Shown here in pieces: positions 23,767-46,545 of a stretch of DNA of 47,908 bases (positions within the stretch are counted from its first letter, which is position 1; every line of letters begins with the position of its first letter). This DNA comes from Acholeplasmataceae bacterium (lineage in GTDB: Bacteria > Bacillota_I > Bacilli_A > Acholeplasmatales > Acholeplasmataceae), in contig JAGYLU010000008.1 of NCBI GenBank assembly GCA_018400755.1, positions 1-47,908 on the forward strand, given 5' to 3'. A program made the position numbers and the translations under genes. The notes beneath the pieces were generated by a model. That model was not told the DNA's origin. It did not search any database and saw only the letters and a list, made by a program, of their open reading frames with translations.

Positions 23767-23792
23767 TAAAAGAGGCGCCCGAAGACGCCTCT
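23767..23792 (-). terminator. Intrinsic terminator of the giant lipoprotein gene
   Basis: On the - strand, AGAGGCG and CGCCTCT (23792-23786 with 23777-23771) form a 7-bp GC-rich stem followed by TTTT. It is about 45 bases after the stop at 23838. Confidence 0.8.
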
Positions 23793-26117: not shown

Positions 26118-26444
26118 TTAAGGGATCCAATCCATACACCCTCGGTAACCGCCATCAAGATATCGAATCGTTTCATCGGCATCAATGACATCGGGCAATG
26201 GCGCTGGAGGAAGCGAATGCAAAGCCGTAGGATCGGATGTGACCGCATAGAGAATCGTGACACCCAAAGGTTGAAGAACTGTCGGGAATGGTGCATACGT
26301 ATTCGCTTCCAACACAACTGGTTCATGCGCGGCAACCATCTCTTCGATCCAAGTCATCAGTTCGACATCATCCATATGAGGGGTCATCAGCCTATCGGGA
26401 TTGTCAATCGGCCGGATCACAAGTTGTTCTCCGACAAACCTCAC
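26118..26444 (-). CDS. Giant lipoprotein fragment between two frameshifts
   Basis: A 108-codon piece that continues the OB-like and beta-rich domain of the segment at 26441-28432: the two overlap by four bases in different frames, so a small indel separates them. Its end at 26118 is also artificial; downstream bases in other frames give LTVEQFYDAPLGTVLSG and FAYINIILFDFDG, the start of the next OB-like domain, before the segment ending at 23838 resumes. No independent gene is supported. Confidence 0.55.
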   Translation of the reverse strand: MRFVGEQLVIRPIDNPDRLMTPHMDDVELMTWIEEMVAAHEPVVLEANTYAPFPTVLQPLGVTILYAVTSDPTALHSLPPAPLPDVIDADETIRYLDGGYRGCMDWIP

Positions 26445-28432
26445 CGGACCGGTGATTGATGTCGGTATGCCAATCCTGAGATCGTCTTACCTACAAAATG
26501 GTAGTAACCATCGGTGTCAATCGGCAGTACACCACCTTCGCCTTCAAGCATGAAAGGATATGGACGATCAGGGTCGAATGTCACAATGCCTGTCGCAAAC
26601 ATCAGATGGAGACTATATTCAAGTGACATCGGGGTAAGCGCCATAAGGTCACTCATCGACGTAGGAATACCGGTCGGGATGATGTCCAGGCCCGTCGGTG
26701 CAGTGTCTTCTCTTGTGATGTTTGCAAGCACATGACGGGTGCCATCAAACAGATAGGAGCCGCGTAGAATGACCGCATCACCACTTTCATGCGCAAGCGT
26801 ATCATCGACATAAATGTATGCATTTTGATCAGCAATCACCGCTGAGCCATCAATCACTGTCATAATCTCACCCATGATTGTGACATCCTGAAGTTGTTCG
26901 GCGATCACCATCATAATTGGCGTCACGGTGCCATCATCAACAACAATCTGGATGATGAAGATTGTTGATTCCCCACCCAAAGCAAAGGTGACTTCGACAT
27001 CGACGATGTAAGGCTCACTTCCCAAGCTTTCGTTAACCATCATGGTTGAACCACCAACGTCAAGGCCGGAAGCATAAGTGCCAACCGGGGTGTAGGTCAA
27101 GGTTCCCCCAAAGACGTCAGACGTCAAAGGGACATCCATGGTGTCACCAGGGTATAGAATCTCGGAGAAATAAACCTGCAAGGATGCTTCGACATAGTTG
27201 ACCTTTTCGGTATATGTCATCTCTTCATAAGTCAGCGAGCTCAAGTCAAACACCATGAGCGACCATACGGGTTGATCCATGAAAATCTCTCTTGTATAAA
27301 GGACACCGGATGCTATCAATGTCATACCGATATGGGCATCCAGATTATCAATGATCGCCTCAGATGTGGGGGATAACAAAACGTGATTCAGGCCATCAGA
27401 GAGATAATAATGTCCCTCATCTTGGAATAGCCCACCGGTGACTGTCAGTGGTTTGGCATTGTCCATGAAGCCCGTGAAATCAAAGGGGACCAAATCTTCA
27501 TAGATGATCTCCAAAGCTTCCGTGCCAAGAACCACCACTGAGCCACCATGCCAAGCATCGCCATAGACCGTCTCGTTCTCATGAAAGAGCATCATTTGAA
27601 CCGATACCTGATCTGCAATCGCCAGATCTCGGCCATCGCCATAAACAACGATGTGCTGAACACCATCGGTCATGGCAAACCAGTTATCACTCTTTTCAAA
27701 AACCGTTCCTTCGACTGAAACCATCATGTTCTCACTTGTCATGACCGCTTCAGAAACGCTCATCGTCTGTATATCTTGTTGCCAAATCGGGAAGAGGAAA
27801 ATGTCTCCTTCTGGCATTACCGGGGGAATCACTTCATCCCAACCGACAAAGACATAGCCTTCCATGACGGGGTCAGTCGGTGGTACATGCCCAGAAAGAT
27901 CCTCACCTGGTTCATGCCATGATTCATAGATGATTGAAAAATCATCCAAGAAATAGAGAATGGCATAATGAGCTTGCCAATCATAAAGCGCATAAAGGGT
28001 CAAATCTGCTTCTGGCATAAAGGGCGGGAGTTCTGGCGTCCATCCGATAAAAATCTCATCGTTCAAGGATGGGGTCTCAGGGAAGACGTGACCAGAAAGG
28101 TCCGTGCCTGGCGCGTAATACGTCTCTTGAAGCAATGTGCCATCCGCGTCCTCAAACGCCAGTCTGAATTCAATCAATACCCAATATGCATAAACCGTCA
28201 TGCTGGTCTCAGGCATCAGATCAAACTCAAAGAAGATGGTGTGATCAGGATCAGTAAACCATCCCACAAAGCCATATCCTTCAATCCAAGATAATGTCGG
28301 TTCACTGATTGGTGCACGGGCCGCCGTAATCGATGGGATCGGATCACCGACATTCGTAACAAACGTCAACGTGACATCATCGGGGGTGATCAACGCCCAT
28401 CCGGCATAGATGGTCGTATCTGTCTCCTGCAA
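26441..28432 (-). CDS. Giant lipoprotein segment: InlB-type repeats followed by OB-like domains
   Basis: A 663-codon open segment. Its first 190 residues are InlB/Listeria-Bacteroides repeats, with hallmark phrases such as GYGFVGWFTDPDHT, TIYAGW and MPEADLTLYALYD. These are followed by OB-fold-like units (TMSVSEAVMTSENMMVSVEG, then SDNWFAMTDG; later QDVTIMGEIMTVIDGSAVIADQNA) and a long beta-rich stretch with a YPGDTM phrase. It begins mid-repeat without a ribosome binding site, so the ATG at its 5' end is not a true start. This is the best preserved long part of the giant gene. Confidence 0.68.
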   Translation of the reverse strand: MQETDTTIYAGWALITPDDVTLTFVTNVGDPIPSITAARAPISEPTLSWIEGYGFVGWFTDPDHTIFFEFDLMPETSMTVYAYWVLIEFRLAFEDADGTLLQETYYAPGTDLSGHVFPETPSLNDEIFIGWTPELPPFMPEADLTLYALYDWQAHYAILYFLDDFSIIYESWHEPGEDLSGHVPPTDPVMEGYVFVGWDEVIPPVMPEGDIFLFPIWQQDIQTMSVSEAVMTSENMMVSVEGTVFEKSDNWFAMTDGVQHIVVYGDGRDLAIADQVSVQMMLFHENETVYGDAWHGGSVVVLGTEALEIIYEDLVPFDFTGFMDNAKPLTVTGGLFQDEGHYYLSDGLNHVLLSPTSEAIIDNLDAHIGMTLIASGVLYTREIFMDQPVWSLMVFDLSSLTYEEMTYTEKVNYVEASLQVYFSEILYPGDTMDVPLTSDVFGGTLTYTPVGTYASGLDVGGSTMMVNESLGSEPYIVDVEVTFALGGESTIFIIQIVVDDGTVTPIMMVIAEQLQDVTIMGEIMTVIDGSAVIADQNAYIYVDDTLAHESGDAVILRGSYLFDGTRHVLANITREDTAPTGLDIIPTGIPTSMSDLMALTPMSLEYSLHLMFATGIVTFDPDRPYPFMLEGEGGVLPIDTDGYYHFVGKTISGLAYRHQSPVR

Positions 28433-29210
28433 GACCTCATAGGAAAGCGGAATCGTCTGGTCTGCATCTTCAAACCAACCGATGAAGTTATAACCTTCCC
28501 TCTCAGGAACACCTTCGAAATAAATGGGTTAATACCTGGCGTGCCATTCATCCTGATGAGTTCATAGAATCCGCCGTGGCATCATAATTGACCAAACATA
28601 CGCTATCATAGATGGCGGTGATGATGACATCGGCTGATGGCATCACATCAGGAATCGGGCCTGACCAACCCCTAAATAACCTTCGATTTACGGTGGCTGT
28701 GGGTAGTTAATTCCCGAAGAGAGATCGCTACCTTCAGGATAGGTCTCGAAGCGATGGTTCCGCAAAGCCATCTTCAAAAATCAGTTGATAGCTTTCTTGT
28801 CGATTCTGGGCCGCAACCAATGTGAATTCAGCAAGCATGAACGGCGGCAAAAACGCTCCAATGACTGAAGGTGCGGCCATCTAGGGATGGTGTGTCAGGA
28901 AAAACGTGACGAGAAAAGGTCAGTCCCTGGCGCGTAATACGTCTCTTGGAGCAACGTGCCATCCGCGTCCAAAAAGGTCAAAGCATATTCAACCGAATCG
29001 CACCATCGGCATAAACCGTGGTATCCACTTCCGGCATCGGGTCAAAAGACGCAATGGTTGTCGGATAAGCTATCAGCAAACCATCCAGCAAAACCGTGTC
29101 CTTCTAGGACTGGTGGTTCACAGTTCGCTGATCGGAGTACCCGGCAAGCCGATGAGATCTTTGGAACATGAGTTCCACCGTTTTCCTCAAATGTCAACGT
29201 CACGTCATCT
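28005..29210 (-). repeat. InlB module, copy A of a ~1.2-kb duplication
   Basis: The segment matches 31010-32225 at a nearly constant offset of about 3,005-3,021 bases; for instance CATCCGCGTC occurs at 28141 and 31146, and related units lie at 28960 and 31981. Both copies carry dense small indels in the same sub-tract (about 28500-29100 and 31480-32130). The RCC1 block lies between them. Confidence 0.75.
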
Positions 29211-30565
29211 GCTGATACAGGTGTCCACATGGCATATAACTCGATGTGCTGTGGTGGCATCGTTTCCAATTCAAATGGCATGGTCCATTCCGGATCCATA
29301 TACCATCCATCAAAACGGAACCCTTCACGTGTTGGTATGAGCAAGTCAAGGACTTCATCGGTCAGATATGTTTGTTCTCCAAGGAAGGTTTCCCCACCCA
29401 GATCGAGTTCAATAAGTACGGGTACCGTTGAGGGATTCCAGTCGCCTTGTCCAAGTTGTCCACTCGCATTGTCACCCCAAGCAAAAACCTCGAAGTCCAA
29501 TGTCATGGCAATCACATGATGATGGCCAAAGGAAACAAGCATAAAGGGATCGAAACTGTTGACCTCAGTCACCGTATCAATGGTTTCAATGACTTCTGTC
29601 TGCAGCAAGTTGTATGTGTTCGCACCAAGGACAAAGACTCTTCCAAATGTGGATTGGAAGATGGCGGAATTCCAACCAACTTGCATATAGTGAATCATTT
29701 CTCCATCTTCTAGTCCAAAGAGAGATGTCATGTCATAGGGCGTATATTGGGTGCTGCTTGTCCCACCAAACTTGGCATAGGCATCAAGCCCCCATCCAAA
29801 GACACGTCCTGAGGTGGACAAAGCATAGTGTCCGCTTTGTGAACTTTCCAAAGCGATGATCATATCATCGCCCCCAAGTCCGAAATGGGTCGTCATGTCA
29901 ATTGGAGATATCTGATAAATGGGTGCTGTTCCGTTACCAGTCTGACCTTGTGCGCCAAAGCCCCATGTGAAAACTCGACCAGCAGAGGTTCTCACCATCG
30001 TCTGGGCAATCCCCGCTGATGCTTCAACCACCATTTCATCCGTGGCGAGATTGAGTCGAGGTGTGATGTCAACGGGCGAGTACCGATGGACATCAGTACC
30101 ATCGCCCAGATTGTAATAACTGTTGTATCCCCAGGCGAACAGTCTGCCCTCACTGGTGATGGCAAAAATCGAATCCTGTTCGACTTCGATATCAACAATC
30201 ACTTCACCCTCAACGAGATCCAGGAATCCTGTCATCTCAATGGGAAGCAAATTAGGCGTGTTTGTGCCATTCCCGAGAATACCATAACTGTTATGTCCCC
30301 ATCCAAAGAGACGACCATGGCTGGTCAGAACAAAGAAGGAGCCATTGGTTGCGAGTTTGTCAAACCACTCGCCTTCTTCAAGCGGAAACAGACTTGTGAT
30401 GTCATTGAATGTGTTGTATTGGGTATTGTATCCTTCGAGATTGGTGTATCCGCCAATCAGAAGATGGTTGTCAGAGGTGACAATCATCGAGGTGCCATTA
30501 CCCGCATAAACATTGATCGGGACAACAACCGCTTGGGGATCATAATAAGAAATCGTATACGTCAA
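29042..30565 (-). CDS. RCC1-repeat segment of the giant lipoprotein
   Basis: A 507-codon open segment dominated by RCC1/BLIP-II-type propeller repeats of about 50-60 residues. Successive blades carry the phrases GRLFGWGHNSYGILGNGT, GRLFAWGYNSYYNLGDGT, GRVFTWGFGAQGQTGNGT, GRVFGWGLDAYAKFG, GRVFVLGANTYN and FEVFAWGDNASGQLGQGD, giving about seven blades, the number needed to close a propeller. It is followed by an InlB repeat (GFRFDGWYMDPEWTMPF). Upstream of its first codon the other frame reads TTIYAGWEALTYTISYYD, so it continues from an InlB repeat. RCC1 propellers usually bind proteins; the partner here is unknown. Confidence 0.8.
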   Translation of the reverse strand: MTYTISYYDPQAVVVPINVYAGNGTSMIVTSDNHLLIGGYTNLEGYNTQYNTFNDITSLFPLEEGEWFDKLATNGSFFVLTSHGRLFGWGHNSYGILGNGTNTPNLLPIEMTGFLDLVEGEVIVDIEVEQDSIFAITSEGRLFAWGYNSYYNLGDGTDVHRYSPVDITPRLNLATDEMVVEASAGIAQTMVRTSAGRVFTWGFGAQGQTGNGTAPIYQISPIDMTTHFGLGGDDMIIALESSQSGHYALSTSGRVFGWGLDAYAKFGGTSSTQYTPYDMTSLFGLEDGEMIHYMQVGWNSAIFQSTFGRVFVLGANTYNLLQTEVIETIDTVTEVNSFDPFMLVSFGHHHVIAMTLDFEVFAWGDNASGQLGQGDWNPSTVPVLIELDLGGETFLGEQTYLTDEVLDLLIPTREGFRFDGWYMDPEWTMPFELETMPPQHIELYAMWTPVSADDVTLTFEENGGTHVPKISSACRVLRSANCEPPVLEGHGFAGWFADSLSDNHCVF

Positions 30566-30954
30566 CGCTTCCCATCCAGCATAGATGGTTGTATTTGTTT
30601 TCCTGTGAAGACCTCATAGGAAAGTGGGATGGGTCCTGGTCCGCATCTTCAAACCAACCCGGTAAGAAATCATACCCTTGTCGGAATGGATGCGCCCTCA
30701 AAATACAAAGGTGTTCCGGAAGCATCCCTTGCGTCGTGGTGGTTCTGGAATTCCACCATTGGCATCATAGGTTAACGTGACCAAGACTTCATAGAGTGCC
30801 GTTAGGAACACATCAATGCTGTGGCATGATGATTGGCATTAGGTAGTCCCATCCAGCTAAATCTATCCTTCCGCATTGGGAATGGTGTTTGATAATGGGT
30901 TAGGTCAACTACCATACTCAAATGAGTCTTAACGCGATGATGGTGTCATCATAG

Positions 30955-31272
30955 TCAATGAAGACAAGACGATATCTTCTGGGTGTCATAAATCGCATAA
31001 ATGGTGACATCATCTTCAGGCATGAAGGGCGGAAGTTCCTCACTCCATTCCAAGAACGTCTGTCCATTCAAAGACGGCTCTTCCGGGAAGACGTGTCCGG
31101 AAAGATCTGCGCCTGGCTCGTAATATGTCTCTTGAAGCAATGTGCCATCCGCGTCTTCAAATGCCAATCTGTATTCAATTGGGACCCAAAGGGCATAGAT
31201 CGTCATGCTGGTCTCTGGCATCAGATCAAACTCATAGAAGTCATTGTAATCAGGATCAGTAAACCATCCCAC
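30955..31272 (-). CDS. Giant lipoprotein fragment, InlB-type repeat pair
   Basis: A 105-codon open piece in the second degraded tract, with DPDYNDFYEFDLMPETSMT, then YALWVP and a second repeat ending LPPFMPEDDVTIYAIYD. It is nearly the same as the N-terminal part of the segment at 26441-28432, being the other copy of the duplicated module. A further open piece in a different frame (31221-31442) supplies the preceding repeat, so an indel lies between them. It is not a separate gene. Confidence 0.5.
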   Translation of the reverse strand: MGWFTDPDYNDFYEFDLMPETSMTIYALWVPIEYRLAFEDADGTLLQETYYEPGADLSGHVFPEEPSLNGQTFLEWSEELPPFMPEDDVTIYAIYDTQKISSCLH

Positions 31273-32225
31273 GAACCAGTACCCTTCAATCCACGATAAT
31301 GTCGGTTCACTGATTGGGGTGCCCGGTGCCCGCCGTGATCTGATGGGATCGGATCACCAACATTCGTAACAAACGTCAACGTGACATCACCAGAAGTGAC
31401 TTCTTCCCATCCGGCATAGATGGTTGTATCTACATCCTGCAAGACCTCATAGGATAGCGGATGGATACAGTCTGCGCATCTTCAAACAACCGATGAAGTT
31501 ATAACCTTTCACCTCTCAGGAACACCTTCGAAATAGATGCGGGGTGCGGCGTGCCTCCATCATGGTCAGTTCGCCAGGATTGCCACCATTGGCATCATAA
31601 AGAGCCAAGCATACATATCGTAGATGGCAGTGATGATGACATCGGCCCCAGTGGCATCACATCAGGAATCGGGCCTGACCAACCCACAAAACCATAACCT
31701 TCGATTTGCGGTGGCTGTGGGTAGTTGAGCCCCAGGAAGAGATCGCTACCTTCAGGATAGGTCTCGAAGCGATGGTTCTTAAAGCCATCTCAAAAATCAG
31801 TTGATGAACTTTCTTGTCGATTCATAGACCACCAGCCAATGTGAATTCAACCACGGCATGAACGGCGGCAAAGTGACACTCAATGACTGAAGGTGCATCC
31901 GTCTAGGGATGGTGTATCAGGGAAAACATGACCGGAAAGGTCAGTCCCTGGCGCGTAATACGTCTCTTGGAGCAATGTGCCGTCCGCGCTCCAAAAAGGT
32001 CAAAGCATATTCAACCGAATAAACCATCCGGCATAAACCGTGGTATCCACTTCCGGCATCAGGTCAAAGGCATAGAAAGTATGGGTCATATACGCAAACC
32101 ATCCTGCAAAACCGTGTCCTTCTGGGACCTGGTGGTTACAGTTCGCTGATGGGAGTGCCTGGCAAGGCGATCAGATCTGGGACATGGGTTCCCCCGTTTT
32201 CCTCAAATGTCAATGTCACGTCATC
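31010..32225 (-). repeat. InlB module, copy B of a ~1.2-kb duplication
   Basis: Partner of 28005-29210. It lies on the N-terminal side of the RCC1 block in the protein. Identity is high over long stretches, interrupted by one- and two-base differences in length that destroy the frame. Confidence 0.75.
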
Positions 32226-33362
32226 AGGAATGATTTCTTCCCATCCGGCATAGATGGTCGTATCCATCTCTTGCAAGACCTCATAAGAAAGCGGGATGGT
32301 TTGCTCTATATCCTCAAACCATCCGATAAACTGATAGCCTTCCCGTACCGGATCATCCTCAAAGTAGATGAGTGTGCCAGGCGTACCACTCATCCTGGTA
32401 ATCTCGTATGTTCCACCATTGGCGTCAAAATAAATCCAGACAACCTGGTCATAGATTGCAATGATGACAAGATCACTTGCTGGCATGGTCTCTGGCAAAT
32501 CATTTGACCATTCAGTGAACTGATAGCCTTCCTTCTCAGGAGCTTTCGGGAACACGTGATTGGTCAAACCATCGCCATAATGATAGATTGTCTCTTGGAG
32601 AACGAGCCCTTGATCATCCTCAAAAGTCAACGTGTAGTCGATTTCCTCAAGAACCACCGTGATCGTGACATCACTTGCTGGCATGGTTGCCGGAATGTCA
32701 GAAGACCAACCAGACACTTCAAATCCTGTTGGTGGCTCATATGCCGGATACGATAGACCAGCGGTTGATGCATTGTAATCAAAATCATGGGAGGAGATCA
32801 CGCTATCGTCATCCCGGAAGATGATCTGGAATGTGAGTGGCTCCCACTTCGCATAAACCGTTGTGTCTGTCTCCGGCATGACCGAGAAGACAAAAACGGT
32901 GCTCAGTCCCGCATCGGCATACCATCCGGCAAACGTGTATCCGAGTTTGGTCGGATTGGCAGGCGCGGTAATGGCCGATCCGACATCCGCCGTGATGGCT
33001 GCGACATTTGTGCCGCCATTGGCGTTAAACGTGATCGTTGATGTCTCTATCACTGCCTCCGGTTCCCACTTCGCATAAAGCGTTGTCTCATCTCCTTCGA
33101 TAAAGATATCGACGAGATTCAACACTTCAAAAGGATCGGTCATTGCTTGGTCATGATACCACCCAACAAACACAAATCCATCCCTGATGGGTGTTGGCAG
33201 ATCATGAGAGTCATTGATATTATCGAGGTTGTAGACAATCGGATCAATCGTCTCACCTCCCATGGTATTGAAGCGGATGGTCTTATCCACTTCGTCGTCT
33301 TTACCGCAGCTAGCCGCAGTCAAGACCAAAAGCAACAACAATGCATACAAGGTTTTTTTCAT
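32136..33362 (-). CDS. N-terminal lipoprotein segment with InlB-type repeats (start of the giant gene)
   Basis: The first 409 codons of the giant gene. The start at 33362 is chosen for the GAAAGGGGAG site just upstream; the six codons before it lie within that site. Residues 1-20 are a lipoprotein signal peptide (basic start, LLLLLVL core, lipobox TAASC), so the mature protein is lipid-anchored outside the cell. Six InlB/Listeria-Bacteroides repeats follow, with phrases such as GFVFVGWYHDQAMTDPF, TFNANGGTNV, GYTFAGWYADAGLST and TTVYAKWEP. The frame ends at 32136 in the middle of the sixth repeat (ENGGTHVPDL), where the degraded tract begins. These repeats are beta-grasp-like spacers common in surface proteins. 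Confidence 0.85.
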   Translation of the reverse strand: MKKTLYALLLLLVLTAASCGKDDEVDKTIRFNTMGGETIDPIVYNLDNINDSHDLPTPIRDGFVFVGWYHDQAMTDPFEVLNLVDIFIEGDETTLYAKWEPEAVIETSTITFNANGGTNVAAITADVGSAITAPANPTKLGYTFAGWYADAGLSTVFVFSVMPETDTTVYAKWEPLTFQIIFRDDDSVISSHDFDYNASTAGLSYPAYEPPTGFEVSGWSSDIPATMPASDVTITVVLEEIDYTLTFEDDQGLVLQETIYHYGDGLTNHVFPKAPEKEGYQFTEWSNDLPETMPASDLVIIAIYDQVVWIYFDANGGTYEITRMSGTPGTLIYFEDDPVREGYQFIGWFEDIEQTIPLSYEVLQEMDTTIYAGWEEIIPDDVTLTFEENGGTHVPDLIALPGTPISEL

Positions 33363-33628
33363 TTGATTCTCCCCTTTCATTCAAGACGTTCTGTCACAGC
33401 AACAAACCCTACAAAAGAAACCTCACGATGCGGATGAACAAAAAAAGCAGGCACATGGCGTGCTTGCTCAAGACTTGATGACTATGAGTAAGATAAAAAA
33501 CAAACCGGTTGTTGGTCGAAATGGGTGTTACGCCCCCACTCAAATTGGTTGTAGGAACCATTGATGTCCATTTGGACACCTCTCACTGGATTTTTAACGC
33601 TTTCATAAGTATTAAGTAAGTACTTCTT
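33363..33628 (-). promoter_or_regulatory. Structured 265-nt leader upstream of the giant lipoprotein gene
   Basis: Read on the - strand from a good promoter, the leader contains a series of hairpins: TGTCC/GGACA (33578-33565), TGGTT/AACCA (33560-33546) and TGGG/CCCA (33538-33522), then an intrinsic terminator (33468-33440), and finally the ribosome binding site and ATG. A terminator between promoter and start codon is the usual layout of attenuators and riboswitches. I do not recognise the class; it does not show the core sequences I know for SAM-I, c-di-GMP, T-box or purine riboswitches. Confidence 0.5.
33440..33468 (-). terminator. Intrinsic terminator inside the leader (attenuator candidate)
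   Basis: AGCAAGCAC (33468-33460) pairs with GTGCCTGCT (33554-46 style positions 33454-33446) over nine positions with one mismatch, loop GCCAT, followed by seven T. It lies about 80 bases before the start codon at 33362 and downstream of the promoter at 33635-33662. Confidence 0.7.
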
Positions 33629-33634
33629 AATTTT

Positions 33635-33662
33635 ATTTTAGCACATTGCGACTCATTGGCAA
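33635..33662 (-). promoter_or_regulatory. Strong sigma-A-type promoter for the giant lipoprotein gene
   Basis: On the - strand, TTGCCA (33662-33657), a 16-base spacer and TAAAAT (33640-33635), preceded by TGC (an extended -10). Five of six positions match in each box. Confidence 0.7.
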
Positions 33663-33753: not shown

Positions 33754-34266
33754 TCAGATTTCATCGATGACAACATGAATTTCATTACGTCTGAGCATGG
33801 GAATCGAAAACGGTGGATTGTAGCGGGCCAACCGATACTGATCCTGATGCTGATATCCTTTGATGGACAACCACTCTTCCAAATGTTGACGCGCCCGATC
33901 AATGGTCTCTTTCGTTGTCCGACCTGAAAAACGATAGACACCGGCATAATGGGCAGGGTATGTCTTGATATCAACCATCGGATTCTTGGGATCTGGAATA
34001 CCTTCCTTGCGAACAACCGAAGGAATCACAAATTCCATTGACATCTGATGACCATCGTGATGATTGATCACTGGAACTGTCATTTTCATCTTCATTTGCT
34101 TGGTATTGTTGCCACTGATATATCCAAACAAAACGCCGAAACCACTCGTTCCTCGAAGATTTTGTTCATTGACAAACGTTGTCATGAATGTTTCATATGC
34201 CCTGATCTCAAAAGGGCCTTCCTTGAAGACGATATCATAGACTGGTGATTCATAGTGTCCCATCAT
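33754..34266 (-). CDS. SOUL-family haem-binding protein
   Basis: A 170-residue protein of the SOUL/HEBP family, which binds haem or tetrapyrroles. Family features visible are the start of the fold (YESPVYDIVFKEGPFEIRAY), GYISGNNTKQMKMKMTVPV, then MSMEFVIPS, a proline-rich PDPKNP stretch, and a final beta strand NEIHVVIDEI. It has no signal peptide, so it is cytosolic. AAAGGA precedes tandem ATG codons at 34266 and 34263, and the first is given here. It stands alone between the FAS1-array terminator and its own terminator. Its role is unknown; haem handling or storage is the family norm. Confidence 0.88.
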   Translation of the reverse strand: MMGHYESPVYDIVFKEGPFEIRAYETFMTTFVNEQNLRGTSGFGVLFGYISGNNTKQMKMKMTVPVINHHDGHQMSMEFVIPSVVRKEGIPDPKNPMVDIKTYPAHYAGVYRFSGRTTKETIDRARQHLEEWLSIKGYQHQDQYRLARYNPPFSIPMLRRNEIHVVIDEI

Positions 34267-34381: not shown

Positions 34382-34582
34382 TTACTCAGTCGGTGCTTCT
34401 TCAACAGGTGGAAGAAGGACACTGTCGATCACGTGGATAATACCGTTTGAGGCTTCAACGTCAGCCAGGATGACTTGGGCACCATTGACGAAGACGTTAC
34501 CATCAACGACAGTGAAGGATAGCGTTTGGCCACCAAGCGTCTCAACTTCAAATGGAACTCCAGCGATTACGTCCAGCGGCAC
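34382..34582 (-). CDS. C-terminal end of the last fasciclin domain (open tail)
   Basis: A 66-codon open piece giving the end of the seventh FAS1 unit, with [18 protein letters not shown], then [14 protein letters not shown] and a short acidic tail EEAPTE before the stop. It has no start of its own; it is the surviving 3' end of the array, and the natural stop codon fits the terminator 50 bases downstream. Confidence 0.6.
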   Translation of the reverse strand: MPLDVIAGVPFEVETLGGQTLSFTVVDGNVFVNGAQVILADVEASNGIIHVIDSVLLPPVEEAPTE

Positions 34583-37335
34583 TAAATGATCGCCAACACG
34601 TGGTAGAAGAATGTTTAGTTAGGGTTTGCCAAGAGATCGGCAGCAGTGATCTCCAAGTTCGGTCGAAAGAGCTGTAAACGCATCGTCATTTGGGGCGAAG
34701 ACGGTGAAGGGCCTTCCGCTTCAAGGGCGCTGACCAGTTCAGCTTCAGTCAGGGCCGCGACCAAGGTTTCAAATGAACCGTTGTCAACAGCGACATCAAC
34801 GATTGTCATAGGGTCTTCTTCAACAGGTGGAAGAAGGACACTGTCGTCGCGTGGATGATACCGTTTGAGGCTTCAACGTCAGCCAGGATGACTTGGGCAC
34901 CATTGACGAAGACGTTACCATCAACGACCTGATGAAGGACATTTGGCCACCAAGCGTCTCGGCTTCAAATGGGGCACTCAGCGATTACGTCAGCGGCACT
35001 ATTGATCACTTGCCAACGTGGTAGAAGAATGTTTGAAAGTTCCGGGTTTGCCAAGAGATCGGCAGCAGTGATCTCGTTCGGTCGGGCCATCGTCATTTGG
35101 GGCGAAGACGGTGAAGGGCCTTCCGCTTCAAGGGCGCTGACCAGTTCAGCTTCAGTCGGGGCCGCGACCAAGGTTTTCAAAATGAACCGTTGTCAACAGC
35201 GACATCAACGATTGTCATAGGGTCTTCTTCAACAGGTGGAAGAAGGACACTGTCGATCACGTGGATGATACCGTTTGAACTTCAACGTCAGCCAGGATGA
35301 CTTGGGCACCATTGACGAAGACGTTACCATCAGCGACGGTGAAGGAGGCATTTGGCGCAAGCGTCTCAGCTTCAAATGGGGCACCAGCGATTACGTCAGC
35401 GGCACTAAATGATCGCCAACACGTGGTGAGAAGAATGTTTGAAAGTTCCGGGTTTACTTCAAAGAGATCGGCAGCAGTGATCTCAAGTTCGGTCGAAGAG
35501 CCTTAACATCGTCATTTGGGGCGAAGACGGTGAAGGGCCTTCCGCTTCAAGGGCGCTGACCAGTTCAGCCAGTCGGGGCCGCGACCAAGGTTTAAATGAA
35601 CCGTTGTCAACAGCGACATCAACGTTGTCATAGGGTGGCTTCTTCAACAGGCGGAAGAAGGACCTTTGTCGAGCACGTGGATGATACAGTTTGAGGCTTC
35701 AACGTCAGCGAGGATGACTTGGGCACCATTGACGAAGACGTTACCATCAACGACGGTGAAGGAAGCATTTGGCCACCAAGCGTCTCAGCTGAAATGGGGA
35801 CACAGCGATTGTCAGGCATTCAATGATCTGCCTTTGGTAGAAGAATGTTGCGAGTTGCGGGTTTGCCAAGAGATCGGCAGCAGTGATCTCAAGTTCGATG
35901 AGAAGAGCTGTAAACGCATCATCATTTGGGGCGAAGACGGTGAAGGGCCTTCCGCTGGAAGCGCTGACTAGTTCAGCTTCGGTCGGGGCCGCGACCAAGG
36001 TTTCAAATGAACCGTTGTCAACAGCGGCGTAACGATTGTCATAGGGTCTTCTTCAACAGGTGGAAGAAGGACACTGTCGATCACGTGGATGATACCGTTT
36101 GAGGCTTCAACGTCAGCCAGGATGACTTGGGCACCATTGACGAAGACGTTACCATCAACGACGGTGAAGGAGGCATTTGGCCGCCAAGCGTCTCAGCTGG
36201 AAATGGGGGCGCCAGCGGTGCGTCAGCGGCGCTGAAATGATCGCTTAACACGTGGTGAAGAAGAATGTTTGAAAGTTCCGGGTTTGCCAAGGAGTCCTTG
36301 TAGCGGTGATGTCAAGTTCGGTGAGAAGAGGCCGTAAACGCATCATCATTGGGGCGAAGACGGTGAAGGGCCTTCCCGCTTCAAAGGGCGCTGACTAGTT
36401 CAGCTTCAGTCAGGGCAGCGACCAAGGTTTCAAATGAACCGTTATCAGCAACGCGACATCAACGATTGTCATAAAGGATTCTTCTTCAATAGTTGGAAGA
36501 AGGACAACGTCGATCGCGTGGATGATACCGTTTGAGGCTTCAACGTCAGCCAGGATGACTTGGGCACCATTGGCAGAGAACGTTACCATCAACGACGGTG
36601 AAGGAGCATTTGGCCACCAGCGTCTCAGCTTCAAATGGGAACTCCGGCGATTACGTCAGCGGCACTAATATTCCCATGCCAACACGTGGTAGAGAAGAAT
36701 GTTTGGTTCGGGTTGCCAAGAGATGCGGCAGCAGTGATACCAAGTTCGATGAAAGAGCTGTAAACGCATCGTCATTTGGGCGAAGACGGTGAAGGGGCCT
36801 TCCGCTTCAAGAGCTGACTAGTTCAGCTTCGGTCAGGGCCGCGACCAAGGTTTCAAATGAACCGTTGTCAACAGCGACATCAACGATTGTCATAGGGTCT
36901 TCTTCAACAGGTGGAAGAAGGACACTGTCGATCACGTGGATGATACCGTTTGAGGCTTCAACGTCAGCCAGGATGACTTGGGCACCATTGACGAAGACGT
37001 TACCATCGAACGGTGGTGAAGAAGAAACCTTTGGCCGCAGCGTCTCAGCTTCCAAATGGGGCACCAGCGGTGCGTCAGCGGCATAAATGATCATGGCCGT
37101 GGTAGAGAAGAATGTTTGAAAAGTTCCGGGTTTGCCAAGAGATCGGCAGCAGTGATGCCAAGTTCGGTCGGAAGAGCTGTAAACATCGTCATTTGGGGAC
37201 GAAGACGGTGAAGGGGCCTTCCGCTTCAAGAGCGCTGACTAGTTCAGCTTCGGTCGGGCAGCGACCAAGGTTTCAAATGAACCGTTGTCAACAGCGACAT
37301 CAACGATTGTCATAGGGTCTTCTACAATTGGATCG
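34422..37335 (-). repeat. Seven-copy tandem repeat, ~414-bp period
   Basis: Long identical blocks recur in every unit, for example the reverse complement of CGTGGATGATACCGTTTGAG, at spacings of 419, 409, 414, 409, 435 and 416 bases. Differences between copies are mostly small insertions and deletions rather than substitutions, an unusual pattern for coding repeats. Confidence 0.85.
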
Positions 37336-37441
37336 GTACATGCAGCAATCACAAACAACAACAAGACAACAAAAGCAAGTGATGATATTTTCTTAAGCAT
37401 GAAATCCTCCTTGATTTTCCCAGTGAGTGGGATGTGCCGTC

Positions 37442-43000: not shown

Positions 43001-44468
43001 CGGCAGGATCTTCATAGGTGACGCCATCGGCTTCGAAACTCTTGAAGAGATAGCCTTCGAAGGAGACGATGGGGGAGGTCAGATCGGATTCATAGGCAAA
43101 TGGCAGCGGATCGCCATCGGTTTCAGAAAGACCGGTCTCAAGGTTTTCACGGACAAAGACATAGGTTCCGGAAACAGCGATCGACGGGGTCCACTTGGCA
43201 TAAAGGACAAGACCGCCAAGCGGCATTGTGCTTTGGGGACCAAAGACAATGGCGTCACCGGTCAGTTCAGCATCCAAATACCATCCAGCGAAGTCGAATC
43301 CATCAAGAACAGGTTCTTCTTGTGTGCCGACGACCGAAAGATATGCCGCGGTGACCGTCTTGGTTGTCAAGGTGTTATCAAAGACACCGTCGCCGGCATT
43401 GAAGACCAGGTCATAATCCATCGGTTGGACGATCGCATAGATATCAAGGTCCTCGGTCACGATATCAAAAGATGCATCCCATCCATCAAAGACATAACCG
43501 TCTTCGACATCGACCGCTGGTGCGGTCACGGTGCTGCCGTATTCGACTTCCGCCCTGAGCAAGGAGGTCCCGTTTTGGTCAAAGAACTCAACTGTGAATG
43601 TCAGGACTTGGAAGATGACTTGGATATCAAGATCCTCGGTCACAACAAATGTCTCAAAGTCTTCGGAGTAGCCAACAAACTGGTATCCTACTTTGGCCGG
43701 TTCTTCATCTGGAAGCACTGGGCTATCGCCATGGTTAACCACTTGGGTGTCATAGACCGTGCCCCAGGCATCCACAATTTGGACCTCGTAGGTCTTGATC
43801 ACATAGACCGGTTCAACTTCCAGGTCGCTCGTGATGGATGTCAGGTCGGAATTCCATGTGCCGTCATAGCCTTCAACGGCTGGGACGGTCGGGATATTGG
43901 CAACCGGATCACCGTGGGCGACCTCTCTGGTGGCGTAGACGTTTCCATCAACGACAAAGACGACCTCATAGATCTCAGGATCCCAAGAGGCATAGATGGT
44001 CAAGTCCTGATCAGGCATCGATGTCGCTTCGAAAGGCGTCTCGAATTCCGGATCAAGGAACCATCCTAGGAAGGTGTTACCATCCTTATATGGGTCTTCA
44101 GGAATATCAAGTGCCGTGCCATAATCTTCCGTCACGGCGGGAATCGTAGCCCCCCCGTTGGTCTCAAAGGTGATGGTATACTCGTTGATCTCCCATTTGG
44201 CGTAAATCACCCGGTTTCTGACGAGTGGTTCATCGGCGTCAAAAGGCACCGCGAGGGCCTCATCCTCAAACCATCCAAGGAAGGTATAGCCTGTTTTCTC
44301 TGGCTCAGGAAGCTCACCGAAGATGTGACCCTGGGTCACGGTCTCATAGGGTAGAACTGTCCCGCCGTTTGTCTCATATGTGAGCCGGACGCTAATCTCA
44401 TCGCATGCCCCCAAAAACATGATGAATGCTACAAGTAAAATGATACCTAGATAACGCTTTTTGATCAT
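40047..44468 (-). CDS. Large surface lipoprotein with InlB-type repeats and a beta-helix-like C-terminal region
   Basis: A 1,473-residue intact gene. The start at 44468 is chosen for AAAGGAAGAG upstream and the lipoprotein signal that follows (IKKRYLGIILLVAF, lipobox FLGAC); the open frame extends to 44561 but lacks a site there. Residues 25-450 carry about six InlB/Listeria-Bacteroides-type repeats (YETNGGTVLPYE, GYTFLGWFEDEALAVPF, VIYAKWE and variants). An Fn3-like stretch follows (FDTPSNLEVSTDLSGTVTVT). The C-terminal third has beta-helix-like phrases, such as NGTSLFDNLRVGYSLIGF, HVKIYDSWANSLYLHNGTG and EILRSEIGQSGGAAIHM, as in pectate-lyase-fold surface proteins. It is probably an adhesin or polysaccharide-binding protein; no catalytic residues are recognised. 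Next to an ABC exporter. Confidence 0.85.
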   Translation of the reverse strand: MIKKRYLGIILLVAFIMFLGACDEISVRLTYETNGGTVLPYETVTQGHIFGELPEPEKTGYTFLGWFEDEALAVPFDADEPLVRNRVIYAKWEINEYTITFETNGGATIPAVTEDYGTALDIPEDPYKDGNTFLGWFLDPEFETPFEATSMPDQDLTIYASWDPEIYEVVFVVDGNVYATREVAHGDPVANIPTVPAVEGYDGTWNSDLTSITSDLEVEPVYVIKTYEVQIVDAWGTVYDTQVVNHGDSPVLPDEEPAKVGYQFVGYSEDFETFVVTEDLDIQVIFQVLTFTVEFFDQNGTSLLRAEVEYGSTVTAPAVDVEDGYVFDGWDASFDIVTEDLDIYAIVQPMDYDLVFNAGDGVFDNTLTTKTVTAAYLSVVGTQEEPVLDGFDFAGWYLDAELTGDAIVFGPQSTMPLGGLVLYAKWTPSIAVSGTYVFVRENLETGLSETDGDPLPFAYESDLTSPIVSFEGYLFKSFEADGVTYEDPADIQLLPDLLDLQITYERIIVTLTFVQNPQSAGGASGIIEDEIRLYYNDTYSEALPEIVVTDPQYQAQWDRTIFVSVKDDLTVRAVYYISGVQTITFVDEGAIKYIATKTTGAPDQIVTEDALIWNLVRPGHKFLGWYTSAIGGTLLSINDMLFSNFTGSQSVYARWQVLEAFDTPSNLEVSTDLSGTVTVTFTLDPAMLEGSHPASFVVRINGTETVVPSTDASFDLTSVTIIIASDHPSYEAFEGLLEPGLHTIAVKAVGDQINHLSSPFSATFELTVDTDIEGEVTDVAIYDYFIVEDVTIGTEQTKRYVFYTDMTYRFSDRYVFEIIEGDVATADESTILTTSEAGNFRFEMTVDGTTTTVYEGRVVENIKQFGYGQAYATYLAEKESTNYLDASVLDPYHVGTANPFVVDLRMIDNSGARVSIDDVMLVFDLYLDDDVNPLEGTERDEYVTLLDDNALMFTEFAVGHQFTVVARPRYQANMMTVSDVTFEVSVNEGYNVYSDVDLKAAFADLSVNTANILRNITAELSPHQMNEDGSPINITANAVTGVGNGNVYTRLSAATNDDSFTVNGHYLTVDGSDLPKSNADSGSGTLGYAQSFEIINIQISMFYYNVYDATTPGYNANNFEMNNLTIIGNTTTPQINYGLSAEEIASQEQLMSENSGGYNAIIVRNGTSLFDNLRVGYSLIGFTANAYGSVTDETEVPIHMTLDHVKIYDSWANSLYLHNGTGIEILRSEIGQSGGAAIHMVDARSGSGLANPEFILDNETVVNNWISGEEAWFKAYSMSVVALQLKGLIESSIAPLGRSIIRTINNPVSGLPTQMINFIMLTEPSNGAVDNSLNPTTGSEVGLRLTDEITQTSIERPFNFLSAPTDPRVTGGNFMFPVGPLSDTNAFLGMMGELMGLGFTQSQAAEAAYVAGFYNLTAMETAQVLMSGLAIPDGVAAVKGADHITPRFLEVLAQVPIFTAGYSIVVVEVGAQE

Positions 44469-44481
44469 ACTCTCTTCCTTT

Positions 44482-44925
44482 CTAGTCGAGATCTGGGACG
44501 ATGACATCATCGGGTGATTTGAACCAGAGCGTGAGCTCGTCGGATGCCTGTGTATCAGCATCCATCACAGTAATGGTGACCGTTGTTCCGATTTCCTGAC
44601 TGTCAAAATATACATAGACCTTATGGTCGATGGTATCAATTTGAACTTCGATGTTGCCGTTGTTTGAAAACGCCTGAATATTGGATGATGCGTTTTCCGG
44701 TTCGAAGCGGTACCGGATGACATAGACGTTGTTGGCAAAATCAACAAGGTTCTTGACATCCTTGAATTTGTCACCATCCGCGTTGGTCTCATCGAAATCA
44801 TCGATGATCAGGGATTCAATCCTGATGCGGTTGGTGTTTTCCGGCAATGTGCCGAAGACCGCGATTGCCATGATGGAGAGGGTGCTGATGGCAAGCACGG
44901 CAAACAAGATGATTTTTTTGCTCAT
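44482..44925 (-). CDS. Small secreted or membrane-anchored protein of unknown function
   Basis: A 147-residue protein with an N-terminal signal or anchor segment (SKKIILFAVLAISTLSIMAIAVFG), no lipobox, and a beta-rich acidic outer part (residues 28-147) that reads like an immunoglobulin-like bacterial domain (VYVIRYRFEPENASSNIQAF, TTVTITVMDADTQASDELTLWF). It ends 14 bases before the large lipoprotein start and begins 10 bases after the ABC permease, with AGGAGG upstream, so all are one operon. I do not recognise a family. A partner of the surface lipoprotein is a reasonable guess. Confidence 0.65.
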   Translation of the reverse strand: MSKKIILFAVLAISTLSIMAIAVFGTLPENTNRIRIESLIIDDFDETNADGDKFKDVKNLVDFANNVYVIRYRFEPENASSNIQAFSNNGNIEVQIDTIDHKVYVYFDSQEIGTTVTITVMDADTQASDELTLWFKSPDDVIVPDLD

Positions 44926-44934
44926 GACTGCCTC

Positions 44935-46545
44935 CTAAAGTTCAATATCACGGAAATAAGCGTTCAGGAAACTTCTGAAGAGAAAGAACCTGAACACGAG
45001 AAATAAAACGGCTGCGCTGATCATCAATAACCAGGCGATCTGTTCAAGATAGACAAACGAGAGGGCTGAAAACGCTGAGAACAACAAGGCGATCACAAAT
45101 CCGATCCTGACCGATGCGGAGACGTTCTTGTTGCCGGAAAGGGAGCCGGTCGAGGCATATTCCCGGATTTTTGGATGCATCACATCAATCTGGAATGACC
45201 AAAGGATATGGCCACTGTTGACAAGGATGACAAACAGGAACAAACGCCATGTGTCTGCGGCGGAGAAGAAAGGCATCACCATCCTGAACAAGATGAAACT
45301 GATCATGATGACAAGGATTGAAAAAGCGAGATTGAAGGTGATTTTCGCCCACGCCATCCGGGCGGTATCCGATGGTGCGGTCTTGAGTAACGCGAATTCC
45401 CCACCTTCGGTTGAGATGGCGGTCGCCGATGCCGTATTGGCGGCCATGACAAGGAGCAGGACAATCATGACATTGAAGACCAAGACGAGCTGATTGCCAA
45501 AGGTGCTTCGGTTCATACCCATGTAGATGTGATTCAAGATCACCATGAAAAAGGGGAGAGACAGCAGGATCGCATAATTGTCCAAGAGTTCGTTCATGCT
45601 TCTCAAGTTCACCGTCAGTTCCTTGCGTAAGAAGGTGACAAAGACATGCTTCGATGCCTTGTTCTCGTGTTTGTGAGGCTTGATTCTTGCTTGCTCGCTG
45701 CTTGAACTGGTCAACTTGAAGAAGAGTGGTCTTGAGATCAACACCGTCATGAGTGACAACCCACCAATCACGAGTAACAGAATCAGATAATTCAAGAACG
45801 GCTTTATGCCGTAAAGCAGTTCACCAACCACGGTATAGATCAGACCATATCTGGCGGATGCTTGCATGAACATGGTGATTGAGATCATGAAGCGATTATA
45901 AAGCTGGACAATTCTGATCGGATAGGGAATATAAGCCAAGACCATGTTGACCCCATAGAAGAGCACACCGATGAACACAAGGAGAAAGATTAACGACAAC
46001 AGCCGTCTGTTCTTCAAGAAATTCCGGAGGTAAACCGCTGGCATTGATAACAATGAGGCGATCAGGACCACCAACAGCGGCAGCAACAACAACATCGGAA
46101 CAATATTGATGTAATAGAGAAACATGATGTCGTTCTCAATCCCGAAGGCGATCAGGATCGGGGCCAGCACATAGAGGTTTTTTAAAAACTCATTGATGTA
46201 GAAGACCATGAGTTTGCTGATGTAGATCTCGTTATTGTTGGCTGGCAAGGACAACAAGATCTGATTGTCCTTGCTGTGATATAAATCATTCATCAGCCCG
46301 CTGGTCGCGGAGATAATGCCCATGCCTTGGGTCAGGATCAGGACAAAGATGATGAAGTGATGATTGACAGGGATGTAGAGAAAGTTACTGATGAAATAGA
46401 GTGCGAAAGTCATGACGATGCTCATCAGGACGACGACGAGGACCCTGAGTGCCACCTGACCGTAAAAACGGCCCTTCTGGTCGATCCTGAGTTTGATGAT
46501 ATTCGATAGTTGGAGTTTGGTTAGGATCAACAGGCGTTCAAACAT
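44935..46545 (-). CDS. ABC transporter permease (ABC-2-like, putative exporter)
   Basis: A 536-residue integral membrane protein with about a dozen hydrophobic helices in two blocks, separated by a charged linker (LTSSSSEQARIKPHKHENK, about residues 285-305). It resembles large ABC-2-type permeases of Bacillota, with a first helix after RIDQKGRFYG and a HSKDNQILLSLPANNNEIY segment typical of export permeases, where the LSLP phrase precedes a membrane helix. The ATPase gene ends 14 bases before it, so the two make one transporter. Substrate unknown; the surface proteins downstream could depend on it, or it may be an antibiotic or peptide exporter. Confidence 0.8.
   Translation of the reverse strand: MFERLLILTKLQLSNIIKLRIDQKGRFYGQVALRVLVVVLMSIVMTFALYFISNFLYIPVNHHFIIFVLILTQGMGIISATSGLMNDLYHSKDNQILLSLPANNNEIYISKLMVFYINEFLKNLYVLAPILIAFGIENDIMFLYYINIVPMLLLLPLLVVLIASLLSMPAVYLRNFLKNRRLLSLIFLLVFIGVLFYGVNMVLAYIPYPIRIVQLYNRFMISITMFMQASARYGLIYTVVGELLYGIKPFLNYLILLLVIGGLSLMTVLISRPLFFKLTSSSSEQARIKPHKHENKASKHVFVTFLRKELTVNLRSMNELLDNYAILLSLPFFMVILNHIYMGMNRSTFGNQLVLVFNVMIVLLLVMAANTASATAISTEGGEFALLKTAPSDTARMAWAKITFNLAFSILVIMISFILFRMVMPFFSAADTWRLFLFVILVNSGHILWSFQIDVMHPKIREYASTGSLSGNKNVSASVRIGFVIALLFSAFSALSFVYLEQIAWLLMISAAVLFLVFRFFLFRSFLNAYFRDIEL

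Follow-up and report, generated by a model that had tools for sequence, protein, structure and literature searches.

A candidate transcription attenuator with a short upstream open reading frame in the leader of an InlB-repeat lipoprotein gene from an Acholeplasmataceae bacterium

In the 47,908-nt stretch of Acholeplasmataceae DNA analyzed here (the window), a lipoprotein gene with InlB-type repeats follows a SOUL-family gene on the minus strand, where all features of the locus described below also lie. The SOUL-family gene spans 34266-33754, with its stop at 33754, and is followed by a separate intrinsic terminator at 33711-33684, in which a hairpin with an 11-bp stem runs into a T tract. Next comes a candidate promoter at 33662-33635, with 10 of 12 consensus matches (TTGCCA, a spacing of 16 and TAAAAT, with TG before the -10 element), which would place the transcription start near 33628. 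A leader of about 160 nt separates this promoter from a second intrinsic terminator, a hairpin plus U tract at 33469-33440, and the ATG of the lipoprotein gene is found only 3' of that terminator, at 33362, behind the Shine-Dalgarno (SD) sequence AAGGGGAG. The promoter, the terminator and the start codon that follows it are thus all present as described in the initial annotation of this DNA, and the sequence bears out the attenuator layout it recognized (promoter, structured leader, terminator, start). The promoter at 33662-33635 is the single promoter-like match on the minus strand from the stop of the SOUL gene to the start of the lipoprotein gene, which is weak evidence because the scanned 4-kb region has about twice as many such sites as expected by chance (10, versus 4.8 ± 2.1 in shuffles). 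The initial annotation had named transcription starting downstream of the terminator as an outcome that would speak against it; a search of the interval from terminator to start codon returned no promoter-like match on the same strand. At the inferred transcription start, AAGTACTTACTTAATACTTA (33634-33600) contains repeats of an ACTT unit and may serve as an operator.

The leader terminator is distinct from that of the upstream gene. It reads GAGCA A GCAC-GCCAU-GUGC C UGCUU followed by UUUUU, with a stability of -11.2 kcal/mol that was equalled in 7 of 200 shuffles, while the SOUL gene's own terminator reaches -9.1 kcal/mol (equalled in 2 of 200). When both strands of the window were scanned more strictly, the leader terminator came out among 42 sites with a hairpin and T tract at -7 or better. 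Elsewhere on the minus strand, three terminators of -9 kcal/mol or better each separate two genes of that strand (at 23773, 37563 and 40004); by our reading of the open reading frame (ORF) list, the distance from the upstream stop is about 40-65 nt for these three and about 310 nt for the leader terminator. The locus thus has what is expected of an attenuator, an intrinsic terminator that lies between the promoter and the start of the gene.

Attenuators of the leader-peptide type also carry a short, SD-led ORF upstream of the terminator, and here the sequence contains a predicted one that the initial annotation, though accurate on promoter, terminator and start codon, had overlooked. This leader ORF occupies 33571-33482, has 29 codons (MDINGSYNQFEWGRNTHFDQQPVCFLSYS) and a TAG stop, and ends about 12 nt ahead of the terminator stem. 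Its SD, GAGGTG at 33582-33577, stands 5 nt ahead of the ATG and is predicted to form a duplex of -9.6 kcal/mol with the anti-SD, a strength that 0.5% of 1190 sampled positions match and that exceeds the value for 19 of the 21 window genes tested. Among 5000 dinucleotide shuffles, only three contained an ATG-initiated ORF that had an equally strong SD and reached 29 codons, and seven contained one that reached 15 codons.

The composition of the leader ORF is less gene-like. Its codon log-odds of -0.08 compares with a mean of -0.03 for out-of-frame sequence and 0.33 for real 29-codon chunks, only 1% of which score as low; the ORF lacks the codon signature of the window genes, and its usage resembles out-of-frame sequence. 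Of the 20 amino acids, 18 occur in the predicted peptide, a diversity reached by 1.0% of 1532 windows of 29 residues taken from the window's proteins and by 2.6% of 3000 random frames matched in composition. Read directly, it contains neither a run of a single amino acid nor an RLR motif, and the sequence therefore places the ORF outside the classical biosynthetic and macrolide attenuator subtypes. No convincing homologue of the peptide was found in 198 other genomes, 10 of which gave matches at E values of 0.07-4.1 with 32-60% identity (six of these 10 loci were read), and a plasmid collection gave no match.

Folding predicts a multibranch domain at 33587-33487, closed by a helix between 33587-33581 and 33493-33487 and enclosing hairpins at 33580-33563, 33560-33546 and 33541-33519, along with a weak fourth at 33517-33503. 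The three hairpins of the initial annotation are thus all predicted, together with this fourth and the closing helix, but the stability of the whole leader does not rise above that of shuffles: the full leader is predicted to fold no better than they do (z -0.07, with 84 of 200 shuffles as stable). The subdomain 33590-33482 has a minimum free energy of -31.2 kcal/mol (z -2.55, equalled in 2 of 200 shuffles), values that apply to a region picked for this test after its fold had been seen. Both the SD and the AUG of the leader ORF sit inside the first predicted hairpin, of 7 bp.

A candidate antiterminator would pair 33492-33485 (CUUACUCA) with 33470-33463 (UGAGCAAG) in a weak hairpin of -4.5 kcal/mol. 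The first strand consists of the last codons of the leader ORF and its partner of the terminator's 5' arm, and the end of the ORF is also predicted to be able to pair with the SD region at 33587-33581. These alternative pairings would correspond to the 1:2, 2:3 and 3:4 layout of a leader-peptide attenuator, with weak statistical support: the 1:2 helix was equalled in 283 of 3000 shuffles, and the best duplex with the terminator arm in 563 of 3000, or in 63 of 3000 if limited to the last 43 nt. For the stage at which the 3' arm of the terminator has yet to be transcribed, the computed sequestration of its 5' arm amounts to -6.0 kcal/mol with no ribosome or with a ribosome near codon 8, and to -1.3 kcal/mol with a ribosome at the ORF stop, which is the direction that an attenuation model needs. 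The value of -6.0 was equalled in 41 of 400 shuffles, and by these calculations the antiterminator pairing is not better than chance. With a ribosome over the SD the computed sequestration is -4.5, which has the wrong sign for a classical early-stall model and was at least equalled in 349 of 400 shuffles. The equilibrium probability of the terminator was 0.86-0.98 in all three cases tried, the value of 0.86 applying with the start region blocked.

The gene downstream is less intact than the "giant lipoprotein" of the initial annotation would suggest. Its first open part (MKKTLYALLLLLVLTAASC..., 33362-32136, minus strand) carries InlB/Listeria-Bacteroides repeats, and repeat homology does continue to about 26441, with the InlB/RCC1 remainder at 26441-32138, but it does so through several frame changes, and a single frame stays open for only 414 codons. 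Unpolished assembly of repeats and true gene decay would both explain these breaks, and under either cause they lower the weight of any claim on how a "giant" protein is regulated. Elsewhere in the window, several long genes have open frames. The neighboring fasciclin gene (34396-37327) consists of seven tandem repeats of 418 bp with 85% matches and 7% indels; the reading frame of this array is broken many times, and a lipoprotein-like start lies at 37400.

InlB-repeat genes are numerous in this genome, with 61 matched stretches. From 32 stretches of InlB-repeat homologues, we scanned 12 upstream regions (L033, L034, L035, L037, L038, L039, L040, L050 and L058-L061) and found no convincing terminator between promoter and start in any of them, terminators either preceding the promoter or being absent; one weak hairpin follows the promoter in L061 (stem 157-140, tail CTAGTTTTAA). 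L036, L062-L065 and positions 44440-44960 of the window were read by eye only. The closest N-terminal homologue, L016, comes from the same genus and is 47% identical. At 2020-2090, in its short 5' UTR just ahead of the SD, a GC-rich hairpin (AGCGACGG...CCGUCGC) is followed by UUUUCGUUU. This hairpin differs from the leader terminator, the L016 promoter was recognized by eye only, and a pattern scan of L016 reported neither the GC-rich hairpin nor a promoter just before it; resting on a fold and on inspection by eye, the terminator-like hairpin of L016 is only a hint of a parallel. In L060 and L061, which belong to two homologous lipoprotein genes of related genomes, the same promoter (TTGACA-17-TATACT) is present, and between it and the SD stands a palindrome, ATCGAAACGTTTCGAT (105-232 in each), a putative repressor operator with a LacI-type resemblance.

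The search of related genomes that the initial annotation had proposed was run with a covariance model of the leader built from one sequence, given twice. Against 297 other genomes it gave three weak matches, all overlapping protein genes and none a true relative, and against 87 other genomes of the family (largely the same set) none at E ≤ 0.1; with such a model and strict filters, a strongly diverged relative could escape. In up to 297 other genomes, this single-sequence model thus found no conserved structure, the lack of which the initial annotation had itself named as speaking against its riboswitch reading; as far as the model tells, the outcome counts against that reading. At the level of DNA, the leader is single-copy in its own genome, and no convincing homologue was found among 60 relatives, where two AT-rich matches of 44-48 bases (E 5e-4 and 9e-4) sit in coding-like sequence when read. 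In 159 other genomes of the order, only the AT-rich beginning of the leader found counterparts, in three matches 40-48 bases long with E values from 1.5e-4 to 9.5e-4; of these three, L003 alone was read. Plasmids gave matches of only 28-37 bases in five records (E 0.3-0.9), and phages gave no match. The genome sets used in the DNA, peptide and structure-model searches overlap. A known RNA family for the leader was also considered and rejected: the whole window had no Rfam 15 match at the gathering score, and a relaxed search of 501 bases (to E 10) returned only sub-threshold matches at chance level, the best being Ref84 with 27.6 versus 52 bits and E 0.19.

The initial annotation had proposed a ligand-sensing RNA of an unclassified type. 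What the locus offers instead of an Rfam threshold match or a structural relative is a short, SD-led ORF, which points to a ribosome-coupled switch and not to a ligand-binding riboswitch. We tentatively favor the reading of a transcription attenuator that is off by default and is governed by translation of this ORF, a plausible best explanation that may well prove wrong and whose switching is inferred. RNA polymerase would start near 33628 and would usually stop near 33440. A ribosome that reaches the stop of the ORF would cover 33492-33485 and leave the terminator's 5' arm free, and transcription would end; if a ribosome inhibitor or the lack of some charged tRNA stalled the ribosome earlier in the ORF, the antiterminator strand would stay free and partly sequester the terminator's 5' arm, and more polymerases would continue into the lipoprotein gene. 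A peptide with 18 of the 20 amino acids would suit a general sensor and not one of a single amino acid. Several observations count against attenuation: the chance-level antiterminator pairing, the wrong sign of the computed early-stall effect, the out-of-frame-like codon usage of the ORF, a whole leader that folds like shuffles, the SD and AUG of the ORF in a predicted stem, the broken frame of the gene, the lack of a homologous leader in relatives, and a downstream gene that is neither a ribosome-protection nor an amino-acid gene. That the element acts as a general sensor of translation stress, switching on a large surface lipoprotein for adhesion or scavenging when ribosomes slow, is a good deal more speculative, and we consider it improbable.

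An alternative is a fixed, unregulated premature terminator, or a backup for the SOUL transcript, in which case the leader would be an ordinary 5' UTR with constant low readthrough and a chance ORF. A whole leader that folds no better than shuffles, an antiterminator pairing at chance level, noncoding-like codon usage and no leader conservation in the genomes searched all agree with this explanation, but shuffles seldom yield so long an ORF behind an SD (the 3 of 5000 given above), and as a backup the terminator would serve a SOUL gene that already has a strong one, with a promoter-like site standing between the two. We regard this explanation as somewhat unlikely. The completeness of the tiny unit formed by promoter, SD, ORF and terminator instead suggests a stand-alone small gene, encoding a 29-aa peptide or an sRNA, with the lipoprotein gene dependent on readthrough alone or on a promoter that escaped the scan; codon usage that is not gene-like and the lack of a convincing peptide homologue in 198 other genomes and the plasmid collection make this unlikely.

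Fainter prospects attach to the two explanations in which a ligand or a protein, and not the ribosome, would act on the leader. Antitermination by an RNA-binding protein of the LicT, PyrR or TRAP kind would account for a terminator in the leader, and AAUCCAGUGAGAGG loosely resembles a PyrR site, but no protein-binding leader family of Rfam matched even when the search was relaxed to E 10, and the gene is not a sugar, pyrimidine or trp gene; we think this quite unlikely. For a riboswitch of a new class, 33587-33487 would be the aptamer and its closing helix the switch strand, and both the stability of the subdomain, equalled in only 2 of 200 shuffles, and the overlap of the closing helix with the candidate antiterminator strand speak for it. 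Aptamers are normally conserved, however, and here no Rfam family reached threshold, the structure model gave only three weak matches, each overlapping a protein gene, in 297 other genomes and none at E ≤ 0.1 in the 87 of the family, and the folded region was picked after its fold had been seen, all of which leaves a new riboswitch class very improbable.

The attenuator that we tentatively favor would have precedents of a well-known general type. The vmlR leader of Bacillus subtilis, as described in PMC9226507, is promoter-driven and structured, with an SD-led upstream ORF (uORF) near its 5' end and a terminator before the gene, all of which our leader has in common with it. Its uORF has three codons and lies within an anti-antiterminator structure, its antiterminator, pausing and induction have been shown experimentally, and its gene protects ribosomes (PMC9226507); our leader, by comparison, has an ORF of 29 codons, a chance-level antiterminator and an InlB-repeat lipoprotein gene. 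For rli80/hflXr of Listeria, PMC6310831 describes a short leader RNA with a 14-aa ORF that ends at an intrinsic terminator, an RLR stall motif in that ORF, and a switch proven by mutants; a short ORF and an intrinsic terminator are shared, while the RLR motif is absent from our leader. The mef(E)/mel leader (PMC4335068) has a 327-nt 5' region with inverted repeats, a terminator and a leader peptide with its own ribosome-binding site (RBS), and this peptide of eight codons, MTASMRLR, contains the site of macrolide stalling; we find a predicted leader peptide with an RBS and a terminator in common, and the macrolide stall motif absent here. With the riboswitches and protein-binding leaders of Rfam 15, the locus shares a terminator 3' of a folded leader, at no threshold match.

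In conclusion, the leader is a candidate attenuator of this well-known general type, with a proposed mechanism. A search of the openly licensed literature with a few terms returned no report that places an InlB-repeat lipoprotein under uORF attenuation, from which we claim no absence. If attenuation proves untrue, what is left is an ordinary leader with a terminator. Our analysis corrects the first reading of this locus in that the point of interest becomes translation of the leader ORF and not a small-molecule ligand, and, if it exists, the proposed switch would carry uORF-coupled attenuation beyond resistance and biosynthesis genes, to a surface lipoprotein.
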